IMG/VR virus record: IMGVR_UViG_3300021090_000040 | Span: 1 to 46,397 of that record | Reading direction: 5' to 3' (one strand) | DNA length: 46,397 nt | DNA from: a virus | In this document: positions 7,201 through 23,788 of the stretch, piece by piece | Layout of the letters: the number at the start of each line of letters is the position of its first letter | How positions within the stretch are numbered: the first letter of the stretch is position 1 | Notes under the pieces: generated by a model | Database searches by the model: none | What the model was told of the DNA's origin: nothing | Seen by the model: the letters and a program-made list of their open reading frames with translations, nothing else | Position numbers and translations under genes: made by a program

Positions 7201-8238
7201 GTTGGCCTCGGCCATCCGATCCGCGCTGCTCATGCCTTCCCGGACATGTTCAGGGCATTACTCTCAAAAGAGGGTGAGCATCGAGTCCAGCAGGAAATTC
7301 AACGCCGTCCCAATTATCAGCTCTACAAGCGAGCAAAACTCTACCTCTCGGAACCTAGAACAACCCTGGCGCAAATGGAAGAAGCCTACATGTCCCGATG
7401 GGCTGAGAAAATCCCTGGCGTCGGCGCCTCTCAGCGGGCCTACACGACGTTTCTAAACAAGCTGAGGGCGGATTCCTTCGATACGATGGCCAACACTCTA
7501 AGCCGGAGCGGCGAGCTCACGGCGGTAGAGGCAAAGGCGATCGCCAATTACATCAATGTCGCCACTGGGCGCGGAGACTTCGGCGTGAGCAATTCGAGCG
7601 CGTTGGTAGGACTCAATTCGATATTCTTTGCGCCACGCTTTATAGCGAGCCGTTTCCAACTACTCACAGGTCAGCCGCTTTATCGAGGCAGCGGGCGGAC
7701 CCGGACCCTAGTCGCTCAAGAGTACGCGCGTTACCTAACTGGTGTCGCCACCGTGTACGCGCTCGGCAAGTTAGCCGGCGGCGACCTAGAGACCGATTCG
7801 CGTTCGTCGGACTTCGGCAAGCTTAAATTCGGTAACACGCGTGTCGACCTGTTATCGGGCCTCGCGCAGGTCACTACTCTGCTTGGCCGCGAGGCAAGCG
7901 GCGAAACTAAAAGCATCAGCGGTAAGATCACGCCCATCCGCGGCGACAAGGTGCCATACGGTGGGAGCAACGCGGCGGATGTAATTTTCCGGTTCTTACG
8001 CACAAAGCTCGCGCCCGTGCCTTCTCAGGCGCTTGATGTCCTCACGGGTAAAAATGTCGTGGGACAGCCCGTCTCGCCGCAATCGTTGGCGACGAATGTC
8101 ACCGTGCCGCTTGCCCTGCGGGATATCTACGACGCCATGATTGATCAAGAGGTGCCACGAGGCACGGCGCTGGGAATCCTAAGCATATTTGGAGCCAGCT
8201 TGCAGACCTACGATCCCCAAAAGAAAACAGGGAGTTAG
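4267..8238 (+). CDS. Large polyvalent internal virion/ejection protein, 1323 aa
   Basis: It starts with TTG 4267 after AAGGAG. Layout: a short helical N-terminus; Gly/Ala-rich membrane-like segments near residues 80-120; a Pro/Glu/Ala-rich linker around residues 300-400; long charged helices near 480-640 and 700-950; and a C-terminal domain (about 960-1320). That domain contains FLNKLRADSFD and SIFFAPRFIASRFQLLTG, which resemble LPD38-type domains of large phage polyvalent proteins. Such proteins are packed in the head and delivered with DNA. No lytic transglycosylase or protease motif was found. It is followed at once by lysozyme. Family assignment is by memory of motifs. Confidence 0.7.
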   Translation: MATEGVESLYPAYSDKIRAAREQGFSDTEIQSVFQSRIQEQSRSGQSVRQIQSTLGQEQPGFLQRLASGPAGDLAQSSLEAAAYPVEVATGAIGGMIPPVARIGAAGLANLVAAATNSDPRALERKALSYVDKAEPYLAYQPQGKLARTTLEVAGAPFVAAEEGLKAAGVPEEIAKPAVEVGGLVLPYLYHRIVGRAPVDSPEARQRFLRQASEEAKRIEEIAPPDLPARIEAAKRDGFSEQEIAQALTERASKPVVKQEVSVEPSAKGPEFFSTLKDLGYTDEQLKTMPFAEKVRRARERVPAEEPPPIEQPAAPEPVAPEAARPPEATPTDLTPEAQPPETAAPVEPVNAPEVKSAPVETPTIAPESTLPPKVAAEAAPPIETPPAPKGEPAPVTSEATSIKNAVVDRELAAQGSPPAQHGQRMSFEEARAAAAKTIEGDPLAGKKLVDELAANPRPPTATEDALLLHEQTRLKNERVKAEDRLIEAQKSGNPEAITEAKGGVEQARTDFAAVGDVVTQVGTESSLSLGHRRMLMREDYSLAEMERQKQIANDGKPLTEAQAAEVKTLHEKISSTQKAFDEYIAKAESAKAEVESKLAHTRLMVEAAKGQAVEPHIKSLADRIVATMDTRADAARIRLKEKLGHLSAGVDPTLIADMAEIGAAKFAHGAVDFGRWSKLMIDDLGQKIEPYLKAVWDASQKAVDDFIEARVPKSQKEPIKRAIKGQDAAGQREAIKEQIRAKAESGDGDITNLAQRLARGFVQEGIKERGALIDAVHGELKSVLPETTRRETMDAISGYGKLRQLSKDEISVQLRDLKGQMQNVAKLEDMEANRPPLRTGVERRIPTTEERRLIKLVNEAKDQFQIPITDEATQLRSSLDMLKARMQNQIEDLQGRLERGDFGKNPRRLIQTDTEATRLSFDLAQTKARFNEGLFKDQLANRSLPQKILGGAGEAVQTSRSLLTSLDLSAVLRQGGFVGLGHPIRAAHAFPDMFRALLSKEGEHRVQQEIQRRPNYQLYKRAKLYLSEPRTTLAQMEEAYMSRWAEKIPGVGASQRAYTTFLNKLRADSFDTMANTLSRSGELTAVEAKAIANYINVATGRGDFGVSNSSALVGLNSIFFAPRFIASRFQLLTGQPLYRGSGRTRTLVAQEYARYLTGVATVYALGKLAGGDLETDSRSSDFGKLKFGNTRVDLLSGLAQVTTLLGREASGETKSISGKITPIRGDKVPYGGSNAADVIFRFLRTKLAPVPSQALDVLTGKNVVGQPVSPQSLATNVTVPLALRDIYDAMIDQEVPRGTALGILSIFGASLQTYDPQKKTGS

Positions 8239-19951: not shown

Positions 19952-20242
19952 GTGAAAAAATTGCCGTATGTTATCGTGCGAACCTATTCAGCTGGTGTGT
20001 TCGCTGGAAATCTTAAGTCACGCCACGGAAAAGAATCCGTGATTTTGAATGCTCGCCGATTGTGGAGTTGGCAAGGCGCCGCATCGCTCAGCCAATTGGC
20101 ACAGAGCGGAACTAGCAAACCATCGCTATGCAAGTTCCCAGAACCTGTTACGGAAATAACCGTTACCGAAACGATTGAAATTTTATCTGTCACTCCAACG
20201 GCAGAGAAAATAATCAAAGAGGTGCCAATATGGAAAGCGTAG
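19952..20242 (+). CDS. DUF6948 family protein, 96 aa
   Basis: GTG start with GGAGGGGG 6 bases upstream. YVIVRTYSAGVFAGNL (6-21), ARRLWSWQGAASLSQLA (34-50), CKFPEPV and the end EVPIW are the hallmarks of this small phage family. Function unknown. It overlaps the Gly/Tyr-rich gene by 13 bases. Confidence 0.8.
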   Translation: MKKLPYVIVRTYSAGVFAGNLKSRHGKESVILNARRLWSWQGAASLSQLAQSGTSKPSLCKFPEPVTEITVTETIEILSVTPTAEKIIKEVPIWKA

Positions 20243-20496
20243 ATGGCAGTTACGGTGCCGGTGACGGTGGTGGTTACGGTGGCGGTTACGGTTACGGTGC
20301 CGGTGCTGGTGGTGGTTACGGTGCCGGTGGGGGTGACAGTTACGGTGGCGGTTATGGTTACGGTGCCGGTGCCGGTGGTGGTTACGGTTACGGTTCCGGT
20401 GATGGTGATATTTACGGTTATGGTTACGGTTATGGTTACGGTGCCGGTGACGGTGACGGTGACGGTTACGGTTCCGGTGACGGTGGCTCAGCCTAG
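20230..20496 (+). CDS. Gly/Tyr-rich repeat protein, 88 aa
   Basis: GAGGTG precedes ATG 20230. Almost every second residue is Gly, with Tyr, Asp, Ala or Ser between (GYGYGAGAGGGYGAGGG). Such sequence is disordered and prone to self-association. I recall similar Gly-rich ORFs beside DUF6948 genes in other phages. The frame at 20243 is also open through the repeat but gives an implausible Val/Thr polymer. Confidence 0.6.
   Translation: MESVDGSYGAGDGGGYGGGYGYGAGAGGGYGAGGGDSYGGGYGYGAGAGGGYGYGSGDGDIYGYGYGYGYGAGDGDGDGYGSGDGGSA
20245..20490 (+). repeat. GGTNNN hexamer repeat array
   Basis: About 40 tandem hexamers of the form GGT followed by TAC, GCC, GAC, GGT or similar. All strands and frames are low-complexity. 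Because the unit is a multiple of three, slippage would change protein length without a frameshift, so copy number may vary between isolates. Confidence 0.85.
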
Positions 20497-20511
20497 CAGG
20501 AGCAACCCCGC

Positions 20512-20548
20512 GTTGCACTCCGCCTGTGGGCGGAGCGAGGATTGAAAC
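20512..20548 (+). CRISPR. Solitary CRISPR repeat unit (37 bp)
   Basis: The 37 bases show every mark of a CRISPR direct repeat. They begin GTTGCA, then a perfect 7-bp stem with a 4-base loop, CTCCGCC-TGTG-GGCGGAG (20518-20535), then a 3' end GCGAGGATTGAAAC whose last eight bases match the classic crRNA 5' handle ATTGAAAC. No second repeat, leader or cas gene lies nearby. The next base starts the ATG of a nuclease gene, and GAGG inside the repeat can serve as its RBS. Solitary repeats in phages are known to act as RNA anti-CRISPRs; that role is inferred here. Confidence 0.75.
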
Positions 20549-20944
20549 ATGAGAAACTACCGAGCCCGAGGCGTGACAAAAGACGGCAAGCCGAAGCTGA
20601 CCGATACCCCGCTTCGGGGTAGTTGGCTTGAGGATTTATTCGCGTGGCAACTTAAGGCTGCGGGCATCCACTATCAGCCTGAGTTCAAATTTCATCCCAA
20701 ACGGCGCTGGCGGGCGGATTTCTGCATCCCCACGGAGTTGGGCCAACAAGCGATCCTCGTCGAGATCGAGGGTGCGGTGTACACGCGCGGCCGCCATACG
20801 CGCGGCGCCGGTTATGAGGCCGATTGTGAAAAATATTCTACGGCGGCGCTGATGGGTTATTGCGTGCTGCGTGGCACTGCGCGGCATGTCAAGAGTGGCG
20901 AATTGCTCCGGTGGGTTGAGGACGGATTAACGGCGAAACGATAA
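20549..20944 (+). CDS. PD-(D/E)XK endonuclease (DUF559/Vsr-like), 131 aa
   Basis: GSWLEDLFAWQL (residues 24-35) supplies the first Glu. RWRADFCIP (about 51-59) and ILVEIEGAVY (about 68-77) give the D and ExE catalytic core. GYEADCEKYSTAALMGYCVLR is the following helix-strand typical of this nuclease group. The phage versions probably act in recombination or DNA processing. Its start codon directly follows the solitary CRISPR repeat. A hairpin, TACCCCG-CTT-CGGGGTA (20605-20621), lies within the coding region. Confidence 0.8.
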   Translation: MRNYRARGVTKDGKPKLTDTPLRGSWLEDLFAWQLKAAGIHYQPEFKFHPKRRWRADFCIPTELGQQAILVEIEGAVYTRGRHTRGAGYEADCEKYSTAALMGYCVLRGTARHVKSGELLRWVEDGLTAKR

Positions 20945-21137: not shown

Positions 21138-21239
21138 ATGAAGCAAGCCACGAGGAGATTTGTCTGTACGGGAGATATTTTTGAACGGTTAACTGTGACC
21201 AGGTTTGTTGGGTTGGTGGGTCACAAGAGGGCGTCGTGA
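21138..21239 (+). pseudogene. Remnant of HNH/AP2-type protein N-terminus, 33 aa
   Basis: ATG 21138 opens a short frame with GDIFERLTVTRFVGLVG, resembling the GxxFGRLTVxxxxG start of zinc-knuckle HNH proteins such as the one at 2157. It ends before any zinc or catalytic residue. Its stop overlaps the GTG of the next gene. Likely a decayed fragment now serving as a coupling leader. Confidence 0.4.
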
Positions 21240-21517
21240 GTTTAGAGGATATTTTAAGAAGTATTATCCGTGAGGAACTCGCCGCGCTGAAATTCAGCGG
21301 CAAAACTCCAGTCGAGGAGGATCAATTATTGACCGCGAGCGAGGCGGCACATATTTTGCGGGTAAGCGAAGGTTATCTTTACAAGGTGGCGTCGACCGCG
21401 CCCTACGCGGTCAGACTGGGAGAAAATGTGGTTCGCTTCTCGAAAAAGAAGATTCAGGAAGAGATCCAGCGCCGGTTGAAATTACAGGGATCGGGAGGTA
21501 CAAAGGGCACCCCATGA
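21236..21517 (+). CDS. Excisionase-like MerR/AlpA-type DNA-binding protein, 93 aa
   Basis: GTG start overlapping the fragment upstream. Residues 33-75 (LLTASEAAHILRVSEGYLYK, ending VVRFSKKKIQEEIQ) form a winged-helix domain of the excisionase family. It sits immediately before integrase, and their ends overlap (ATGA). It probably steers the direction of recombination at attP. Confidence 0.75.
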   Translation: MSLEDILRSIIREELAALKFSGKTPVEEDQLLTASEAAHILRVSEGYLYKVASTAPYAVRLGENVVRFSKKKIQEEIQRRLKLQGSGGTKGTP

Positions 21518-22656
21518 GAACACTAGGCAGAATATTTAAGAGGAGCTGGAAAAAGCCCGATGGAACCGTCGCTGTCTCTCCAAATTATTCCATTGCGCTG
21601 TTCTACGACGGCAGAGAGCGTGTCGAGTCGGCAAAAACCGAAAGTGAAGTAAGGGCTCGCGCGCTCCTACGGCGCCGGATCGAGGAAATGAGCCGCGGTG
21701 AATTCAAGCCGAGCCAGGACAAGGTTTATCTCCGCGATCTGCTCGATTTGCTCAAGGCTGATTATCGAAACAACAATCAGCGTTCGCTCCAAGATGCGCT
21801 CTGGAAGATTACGCCGCTCAGCGCTTATTTCGAGGGCTGGAAGGTCAAGGCAATCACGTACGACAGGATTTCAGCCTATACGCAGTTTCGCTTGGGAGAG
21901 AAAGTCGCCACCGCAACAGTCAACGGCGAGCTAAGATATTTGAGGCGCATGCTCCGGCTCGGGATTAAGCATGGCAAAATCGCGACGATGCCGATCGTCG
22001 AGCTCCTTAAGGGCGAAGCGCGGCGCTCTGGTTTCATCGATCCGGCCGACTTCGCGAATTTGCTTCAAAAACTTGACGATACCGACGTGCTCGACCTAGT
22101 AGAGCTACTGTACCTTACGGGGTGGCGGCTCTCGACCGGACTCGGGTTAGAGTGGCGCGACGTGAATTTGCAGGCTGGAACAATCACCATGCGCGCCGAG
22201 CTATCGAAAAACAAAGAACCGATGGTGTTGCCGTTCTTTGCAAATCTAGGAGAGATCATAGAGCGACGCCAAGCGCTGCGCCGGCTCGATTGTCCGTTTG
22301 TTTTTCATCGCAACGGTAGGCGGGTTAAAGATTTCCGCGCCGAGTGGGCCAAGGCGACAAGGGCGGCTGGACGTACCGGGCTGTTGGTGCATGACTTGTG
22401 TAGATCGGCCGCGCGCAATCTGTCGCGCGCAGGAGTATCGGAGACCGTGGCAAGTAAGGTAATGAATCGTAAGACGTTGGCCATATACAAACTTTACCGC
22501 GTGGTGGACACCGAGGATTTGCGCATTGCCGGCCAAGCTCTCGACGGTTATTTGCAAATTGCGCGAAAGGCAGCGATGGTGGTCTCTGTATGTGACTCAC
22601 TCACACAAAACTCACACAGAGTGGCCACCGACGAGGCCGCGACTGGAAATAAGTGA
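21514..22656 (+). CDS. int: Tyrosine integrase with altered active site, 380 aa
   Basis: Family signs: a core-binding domain (about 70-165), LYLTGWRLSTGLGLEW (R205 is catalytic Arg I), the beta-hairpin KNKEPMVLPF, HDLCRSAARNLSRAGV (H293) and IYKLY with Y328 at the nucleophile position. Two expected residues are missing. The HxxR arginine is Cys296 (TGT, one transition from CGT), and the second His/Trp is Arg319 in MNRKT where GHKT is usual. The Glu after Arg I is also Thr. Location beside an excisionase and attP shows what it was for; activity is doubtful. Confidence 0.85.
   Translation: MRTLGRIFKRSWKKPDGTVAVSPNYSIALFYDGRERVESAKTESEVRARALLRRRIEEMSRGEFKPSQDKVYLRDLLDLLKADYRNNNQRSLQDALWKITPLSAYFEGWKVKAITYDRISAYTQFRLGEKVATATVNGELRYLRRMLRLGIKHGKIATMPIVELLKGEARRSGFIDPADFANLLQKLDDTDVLDLVELLYLTGWRLSTGLGLEWRDVNLQAGTITMRAELSKNKEPMVLPFFANLGEIIERRQALRRLDCPFVFHRNGRRVKDFRAEWAKATRAAGRTGLLVHDLCRSAARNLSRAGVSETVASKVMNRKTLAIYKLYRVVDTEDLRIAGQALDGYLQIARKAAMVVSVCDSLTQNSHRVATDEAATGNK
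22606..22619 (+). repeat. Putative integrase arm site, left
   Basis: CAAAACTCACACAG lies inside the last codons of the integrase gene and is repeated exactly at 22817-22830, on the other side of the tRNA-like core. This is the arrangement expected of integrase arm-type sites. Confidence 0.55.
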
Positions 22657-23158: not shown

Positions 23159-23542
23159 TCATTTGCATGCCGGGCAACTTGCTGGGCACGGCTTATTATA
23201 GACGCGCCGGAAATCGTGCTGTCGCCTATAGCGATCCTGCTCCCGCTGGGTATCGTCGCGCCAGCGCACCATCCACGCATAGTTCGTCGGTTGCTCGCTG
23301 TCATACAATCTCACAGCGTGGACGGGCTTGCCATGCAGATCCTGTGTCGGATGATCGCTGTCGAGATCAGGCAGTCGCTGGACCTTGGTGACAACGACTC
23401 GATACAGCCGCCAGTAAATATCCTCCATCTCATAGTGCGCGCTCAAGTCGTCGCTCCAGTTGACACTTGAGTGGCAAAGATCGGCGTGTTCCGGCGGACA
23501 ACAATAATCGACGCAATAATGGCCTTTGCTTGTGCGATCCAT
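23159..23542 (-). CDS. Hypothetical accessory protein, 127 aa
   Basis: Cys pairs near both ends (HYCVDYCCPPEHADLC and the terminal PCPASCPACK) may bind metal. The middle is charged and aromatic (MVRWRDDTQREQDRYRRQHD). Start at the ATG ending at 23542. Other frames here give low-quality sequence. No family recognised; part of the leftward accessory cluster. Confidence 0.55.
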   Translation of the reverse strand: MDRTSKGHYCVDYCCPPEHADLCHSSVNWSDDLSAHYEMEDIYWRLYRVVVTKVQRLPDLDSDHPTQDLHGKPVHAVRLYDSEQPTNYAWMVRWRDDTQREQDRYRRQHDFRRVYNKPCPASCPACK

Positions 23543-23545
23543 TGG

Positions 23546-23788
23546 CTAATCCAATCCTCGCGCGATAAAGCCACGCTCGGCCAAGGGCGCACAAGTATGA
23601 TCCTCCACTACGCCCTCGACGACCCGGTAGATTTTGCCGCAATCCTTGCAGGATAGCGCGCCGTACTTAGCGATCCGGGCTGAGTCGTTATTTTTAAGGA
23701 TGTCAAATTCCGCGCTCCGGGCGGCCCAGCAGCACGGTCGCTGTGGGTCCTCAGTGTCGCAAATATGTTGGTATGCTTTGTGTGCCAT
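23546..23788 (-). CDS. Zinc-ribbon-like accessory protein, 80 aa
   Basis: GGAGGCAGAA precedes the ATG at 23788 on the minus strand. HICDTEDPQRPCCW and SCKDCGKIYRVVEGVVEDHTC give two metal-binding clusters. Function unknown; it lies 3 bases upstream of the next gene. Confidence 0.6.
   Translation of the reverse strand: MAHKAYQHICDTEDPQRPCCWAARSAEFDILKNNDSARIAKYGALSCKDCGKIYRVVEGVVEDHTCAPLAERGFIARGLD

Follow-up and report, generated by a model that had tools for sequence, protein, structure and literature searches.

RacrIC1, a solitary type I-C CRISPR repeat that is co-transcribed with acrIC5 and inhibits type I-C, is one of the described RNA anti-CRISPRs (Racrs), for which a promoter within 250 nucleotides (nt) upstream has served as a selection criterion (PMC10651486). 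Type I-C systems are without Cas6; Cas5d (Cas5c) makes the cut, the 5' handle that results is 11 nt long, and a single Cas5d remains on the 3' hairpin after cutting (PMC5965380). Here we analysed a stretch of viral DNA, hereafter the window, that is the entire 46,397-base IMG/VR virus record IMGVR_UViG_3300021090_000040. It carries a lone 37-nt repeat, GTTGCACTCCGCCTGTGGGCGGAGCGAGGATTGAAAC, and a small nuclease gene begins with the very next bases, an ATG at 20549. We read this element, with a probability of roughly 0.55, as a type I-C solitary repeat unit (SRU) acting as a candidate RNA anti-CRISPR inside an early phage mRNA.

The sequence at 20512-20548 is a genuine single-copy CRISPR repeat. 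A covariance model built from 33 family repeats, with the window copy left out, scored it at 44 bits (E = 1.2e-10), while the runner-up site in the window reached 12.5 bits (E = 0.28). No second copy, partial or degenerate repeat, mini-array or array was found by this model in the 46-kb window, and no cas gene was recognised among its 60 main open reading frames (ORFs) with PADLOC and NCBIfam at E <= 0.001. The claim of a preliminary description that the repeat stands alone, with neither array nor cas genes, is thus borne out. The repeat is lone, intergenic and located on a mobile element without recognised cas genes, as defines an SRU, and the window lacks the at least two repeats plus spacer that define a viral mini-array. 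A search of Rfam gave no match. Folded alone, the 37-mer forms a 7-base-pair (bp) hairpin (-14 kcal/mol, z -2.1; 5 of 200 shuffles equal it), so the perfect 7-bp hairpin described earlier holds for the isolated fold, but the family stem is 9 bp long and contains an A-C mismatch in this copy. Every column that is invariant in the 33-repeat set is kept here, including C5-G26 and the whole handle, and seven contiguous stem pairs are retained.

The family to which this repeat belongs has a consistent architecture of 37 nt: GTTG, a 9-bp covarying stem closed by a tetraloop, and then AGGATTGAAAC, which is unchanged in all 17 viral and all 17 array repeats of the comparison. When the 257 Gb of GTDB contigs were searched with the pattern GTTGCANNCC-N8-11-GGNNNGAGGATTGAAAC (22 bases), matches occurred in one organism only, the Chloroflexota metagenome-assembled genome (MAG) JACQUI01, which contains five repeats with CRISPR-array spacing (spacers 34-48 nt) and two solitary copies. 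These are the closest array repeats, with 32/37 identities to the array consensus and 33/37 to one repeat, and they are near-identical repeats of the kind that the preliminary description said would support its proposal. Cas1 was not found in MAG JACQUI01, and its subtype rests on the family only. The 37-nt family pattern matched 19 of 400 sampled Chloroflexota genomes (0 for a reversed control pattern). Arrays with a period of about 72 nt were present in 11 of the 19, JACQUI01 included; the remaining eight have a single copy or two, in some cases apparently the decayed end of an array. Deinococcus plasmids also carry relatives, with 17 copies in D. proteolyticus and two arrays plus one solitary copy in D. 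aetherius.

At three loci, family arrays have type I-C cas genes beside them or nearby: the viral contig L039 (Cas3, Cas8c/Csd1, Cas7/Csd2, Cas4, Cas1c and Cas2), G378 (Cas3, Cas5c, Cas8c and Cas1c) and D. aetherius pDAETH-1, where a RefSeq-annotated cas3-cas5c-cas8c-cas7c-cas4-cas1c-cas2 operon ends, with cas2, about 180 bases before the first array. The repeat family belongs to subtype I-C. Because the cognate subtype is I-C, the predicted processing enzyme is Cas5c rather than Cas6, and exactly 11 invariant bases lie 3' of the family stem, the length of the Cas5d handle (PMC5965380). Cas6, named earlier as the binding or cleaving enzyme, is ruled out as the partner, since the cas loci found with this family are type I-C, and the 8-nt handle proposed with it gives way to the 11-nt one. 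As a separate observation, L039/L029 (IMGVR_UViG_3300022554_000219) is a 55-kb viral contig with both a type I-C cas operon and an array, representing either a prophage edge or a phage-borne CRISPR system.

Across the family, the hairpin is kept by compensatory change in viral solitary copies and is not drifting. Among 17 viral solitary repeats the 9-bp stem is paired in 95.4% of cells, compared with 99.3% in 17 array repeats, and eight of the nine pairs change on both sides. None of 500 shuffles reached the covariation score of the viral set, and slid registers came nowhere near it. The pattern named in the preliminary description as refuting its proposal, a hairpin that drifts while only the ribosome-binding part is kept, is therefore not what is seen at the family level, the level at which this result holds. 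No close relatives of the phage in the window were found.

The identity of the repeat, the subtype of its family, the conservation of its structure, its single copy and its position are direct observations. For the phage in the window we infer transcription of the repeat, its cleavage, the sequestration of Cas proteins and an anti-CRISPR effect. Cas5c would cut the phage mRNA at the repeat, after the hairpin predicted by the family structure, and would stay on the upstream hairpin product, where Cas7 may polymerise. Cas proteins would thereby be pulled into dead-end complexes and host interference would fall. The handle and start codon together read AGGA-UUGAAAC-AUG, a complete Shine-Dalgarno leader with 7-nt spacing, in agreement with the earlier statement that the repeat contains the ribosome-binding site of the nuclease. 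Since the 11-nt handle AGGAUUGAAAC doubles as this leader, the nuclease mRNA could still be translated after cleavage, making the decoy cheap for the phage.

Several observations weigh against an RNA anti-CRISPR role. No array, from a host or elsewhere, was found to contain the exact 37-mer. The A-C mismatch, at pair 6-25 near the base of the 9-bp family stem, is seen in the window copy only among the 17 viral and 17 array repeats, and GCAAC at 20503-20507 is complementary to the repeat's GTTGC, so that pairing between the two could compete with the stem base. The promoter-like site at 20187-20214 is weak (9/12) and lies about 300 nt upstream, in a scan that may not cover the host's promoters. 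No acr or aca genes were recognised near the repeat, with libraries that cover Acr families poorly. Finally, solitary copies in Chloroflexota genomes and on a D. aetherius plasmid indicate that such repeats also persist where no virus is recognised, a setting in which they are not expected to act as anti-CRISPRs.

The features of the locus are listed in the table below. Given its terminase, portal, major capsid, integrase and methylase genes, the window is, as judged from these genes, a temperate tailed phage. The portal protein had no relative in 151 Chloroflexota genomes, in a search that had no positive control, and the five spacers of the MAG JACQUI01 array had no convincing match in the window. 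A tandem-repeat tract at 20249-20485, with periods of 6, 24 and 42 nt, codes for the ORF preceding the repeat, and a 1323-aa protein encoded at 4267-8238 matches a DarB-like antirestriction PHROG.

Coordinates of the solitary repeat, its parts and the neighbouring genes in the window
Feature	Position	Strand	Remark
Solitary 37-nt type I-C-family CRISPR repeat (SRU), GTTGCACTCCGCCTGTGGGCGGAGCGAGGATTGAAAC	20512..20548	+	
9-bp stem, 5' arm CACTCCGCC	20516..20524	+	family structure
Tetraloop TGTG	20525..20528	+	
9-bp stem, 3' arm GGCGGAGCG	20529..20537	+	A-C mismatch 20517/20536
11-nt type I-C 5' handle AGGATTGAAAC	20538..20548	+	Shine-Dalgarno AGGA, 7 nt before ATG
Small PD-(D/E)XK-like nuclease (DUF559/Vsr-like), 131 aa	20549..20944	+	start codon flush with repeat
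Gly/Tyr-rich ORF in tandem-repeat tract	20230..20496	+	end 15 nt before repeat
Excisionase-like helix-turn-helix gene	21236..21517	+	downstream of repeat, same strand
Tyrosine integrase	21514..22656	+	temperate phage

We also examined the nuclease gene behind the repeat. Its ORF matches PHROG 503 (unknown function), DUF559 was found in four relatives, and profile and fold searches matched 3hrl and the homing endonuclease I-Bth0305I (3r3p), with modest E-values (profile, 0.002 to 0.34; fold, 0.006 to 0.009). A structural model from 10 sequences was good (pLDDT 83), whereas that from the single sequence was poor. Asp57, Glu72, Glu74 and Lys95 are invariant among 10 relatives, and one relative with a similar N-terminal length supports the assigned start. 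These matches agree with the earlier statement that the repeat abuts the start of a PD-(D/E)XK nuclease, here qualified as PD-(D/E)XK-like. The covariance model found no family repeat in DNA fetched for eight loci with related nucleases. Because these loci are without the repeat, the pairing appears particular to the phage in the window. A conserved nuclease-repeat pair is rejected on the basis of these eight loci, a conserved nuclease switch is unlikely, and the suggestion that the repeat serves as a dedicated control of the nuclease is weakened.

At least 16 other viral contigs have solitary family repeats, in some cases two or three. Coding status and gene starts around them were assigned with a crude ORF caller. 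By this measure solitary repeats avoid coding sequence, 17 of 22 being non-coding although the contigs are about 85% coding, which favours the RNA anti-CRISPR reading. Terminator-like hairpins come after the solitary copies in L090 and L100, as would suit small RNAs that stand alone, and mini-arrays of two and three copies occur in the viral contigs L098, L029 and L034. Searches of annotated phage records gave no convincing match to the 37-mer. The phage contig L112 (G460) has three repeat units (1801-1837, 1971-2005 and 7366-7400), two of which are 35 nt long, with units 8 and 43 nt before plausible genes. In L109 (G467), a TATGAT-like -10 site precedes the repeat at 533-569 by a few bases, a small helix-turn-helix-like gene follows it after 16 nt, and an identical copy is present 4 kb away. 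In Chloroflexota genomes, four solitary repeats lie on the sense strand upstream of genes whose likely products were judged by eye: L001:2684-2720 (minus strand), with the ATG of a USP-like gene 12 nt further on; L003:6204-6240 (minus strand), with the TTG of a zinc-ribbon-like gene after 15 nt; L052:1501-1537, 37 nt before a DnaJ-like gene; and L058:1501-1537, 79 nt before a UbiD-like gene. The copies preceding the USP-like and zinc-ribbon-like genes are the two solitary ones of MAG JACQUI01.

Such positions raise the question of whether the repeat is instead a cis-regulatory element, through which the nuclease would be controlled by host Cas5c cutting the RNA or by Cascade assembling on the handle, an explanation that we consider unlikely. 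Cas5c seated on the handle would block translation because the handle is the Shine-Dalgarno sequence, and the released cut end would be an 11-nt leader with that sequence intact. The flush ATG and the AGGA-N7-AUG spacing suit such control, and the layout recurs: the repeat followed by ATG gave three viral matches (L037, L093 and L029) and the control, repeat followed by GTA, gave none, with the repeat flush with the ATG of a 416-aa integrase in L037 and of an open frame in L093. However, the L029 match is the last repeat of an array, and an ATG comes directly after 5 of 129 array repeats as well, compared with 3 of 18 solitary repeats (P = 0.06). Of the 17 non-coding solitary repeats, seven have a sense start no more than 80 nt downstream, as do 18% of random non-coding placements (P = 0.02); with a limit of 30 nt the figures are four repeats and 9% (P = 0.07). 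This proximity, which depends on gene starts from the crude caller, is a suggestive trend only. Control of the nuclease in cis is further disfavoured by the eight related nuclease loci that lack the repeat and by the variation in downstream genes between phages.

It is likewise doubtful that the repeat is neutral, a relic of a mini-array or of the end of a host array that the phage captured, with its 3' part retained because it happens to be a good ribosome-binding site. The A-C mismatch, the fact that the 3' end alone supplies the Shine-Dalgarno sequence and the mini-arrays in the three viral contigs named above speak for a leftover, but the seven contiguous stem pairs, C5-G26 and all invariant columns have been retained, the hairpin does not drift in other viral solitary copies and the window has no second degenerate repeat. 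Chance similarity of a hairpin and Shine-Dalgarno sequence to a CRISPR repeat is effectively refuted. The 3' portion GCGAGGATTG is by itself common at random, with six matches at no more than one mismatch against 4.3 expected. One similar short match, at 23552-23561 on the minus strand, is without GTTGCA or hairpin context and is not found by the covariance model, so the caution voiced earlier about the 3' part near 23542 was justified. The whole repeat, in contrast, scores 44 bits (E = 1.2e-10) with an independent covariance model, and in 257 Gb of genomes the 22-base pattern has no matches other than CRISPR-family loci in a single MAG.

If the element is an RNA anti-CRISPR, it extends candidates of this kind to phages with the Chloroflexota/Deinococcota-type type I-C repeat family and shows an arrangement that joins the decoy directly to a ribosome-binding site. 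As a more speculative proposal, to which we give a low probability, solitary type I-C repeats in phages and Chloroflexota might be Cas5c-responsive mRNA leaders. Because the 11-nt handle doubles as a Shine-Dalgarno sequence, Cas5c could both process the message and set translation of the next gene, with the phage gaining a cheap Cas decoy. Were Cas5c to act on such leaders, CRISPR enzymes would regulate gene expression in phages and, as copies also occur in bacterial genomes, in hosts too. Since solitary type I-C RNA anti-CRISPRs are already known, the novel possibility lies in the start-codon fusion together with possible Cas5c-controlled translation.

The locus shares different features with each of the described systems. 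Like creA of CreTA modules, which works with host Cas proteins (PMC8501985), it would yield an RNA derived from a CRISPR repeat, but a second degenerate repeat is absent from the window, and beside the repeat no toxin gene was seen. Virus-borne CRISPR mini-arrays (reviewed in PMC11656645) also place host-type repeats on viruses, whereas the window has one repeat only, with no spacer-repeat unit found. In common with RacrIF1 and the SRUs identified by SRUFinder (PMC10651486), it has a lone intergenic repeat with its stem-loop kept and no cas genes; unlike them, it lacks a clear promoter immediately upstream, and no terminator separates it from the gene. RacrIC1, found in a Bifidobacterium prophage downstream of acrIC5 (PMC10651486), shares with our candidate a solitary type I-C repeat in a phage mRNA beside genes, with processing by Cas5 predicted here. 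In contrast to RacrIC1, no acr gene was recognised at the window locus, where a 37-nt repeat of the Chloroflexota/Deinococcota type instead lies flush with the start codon of a nuclease.
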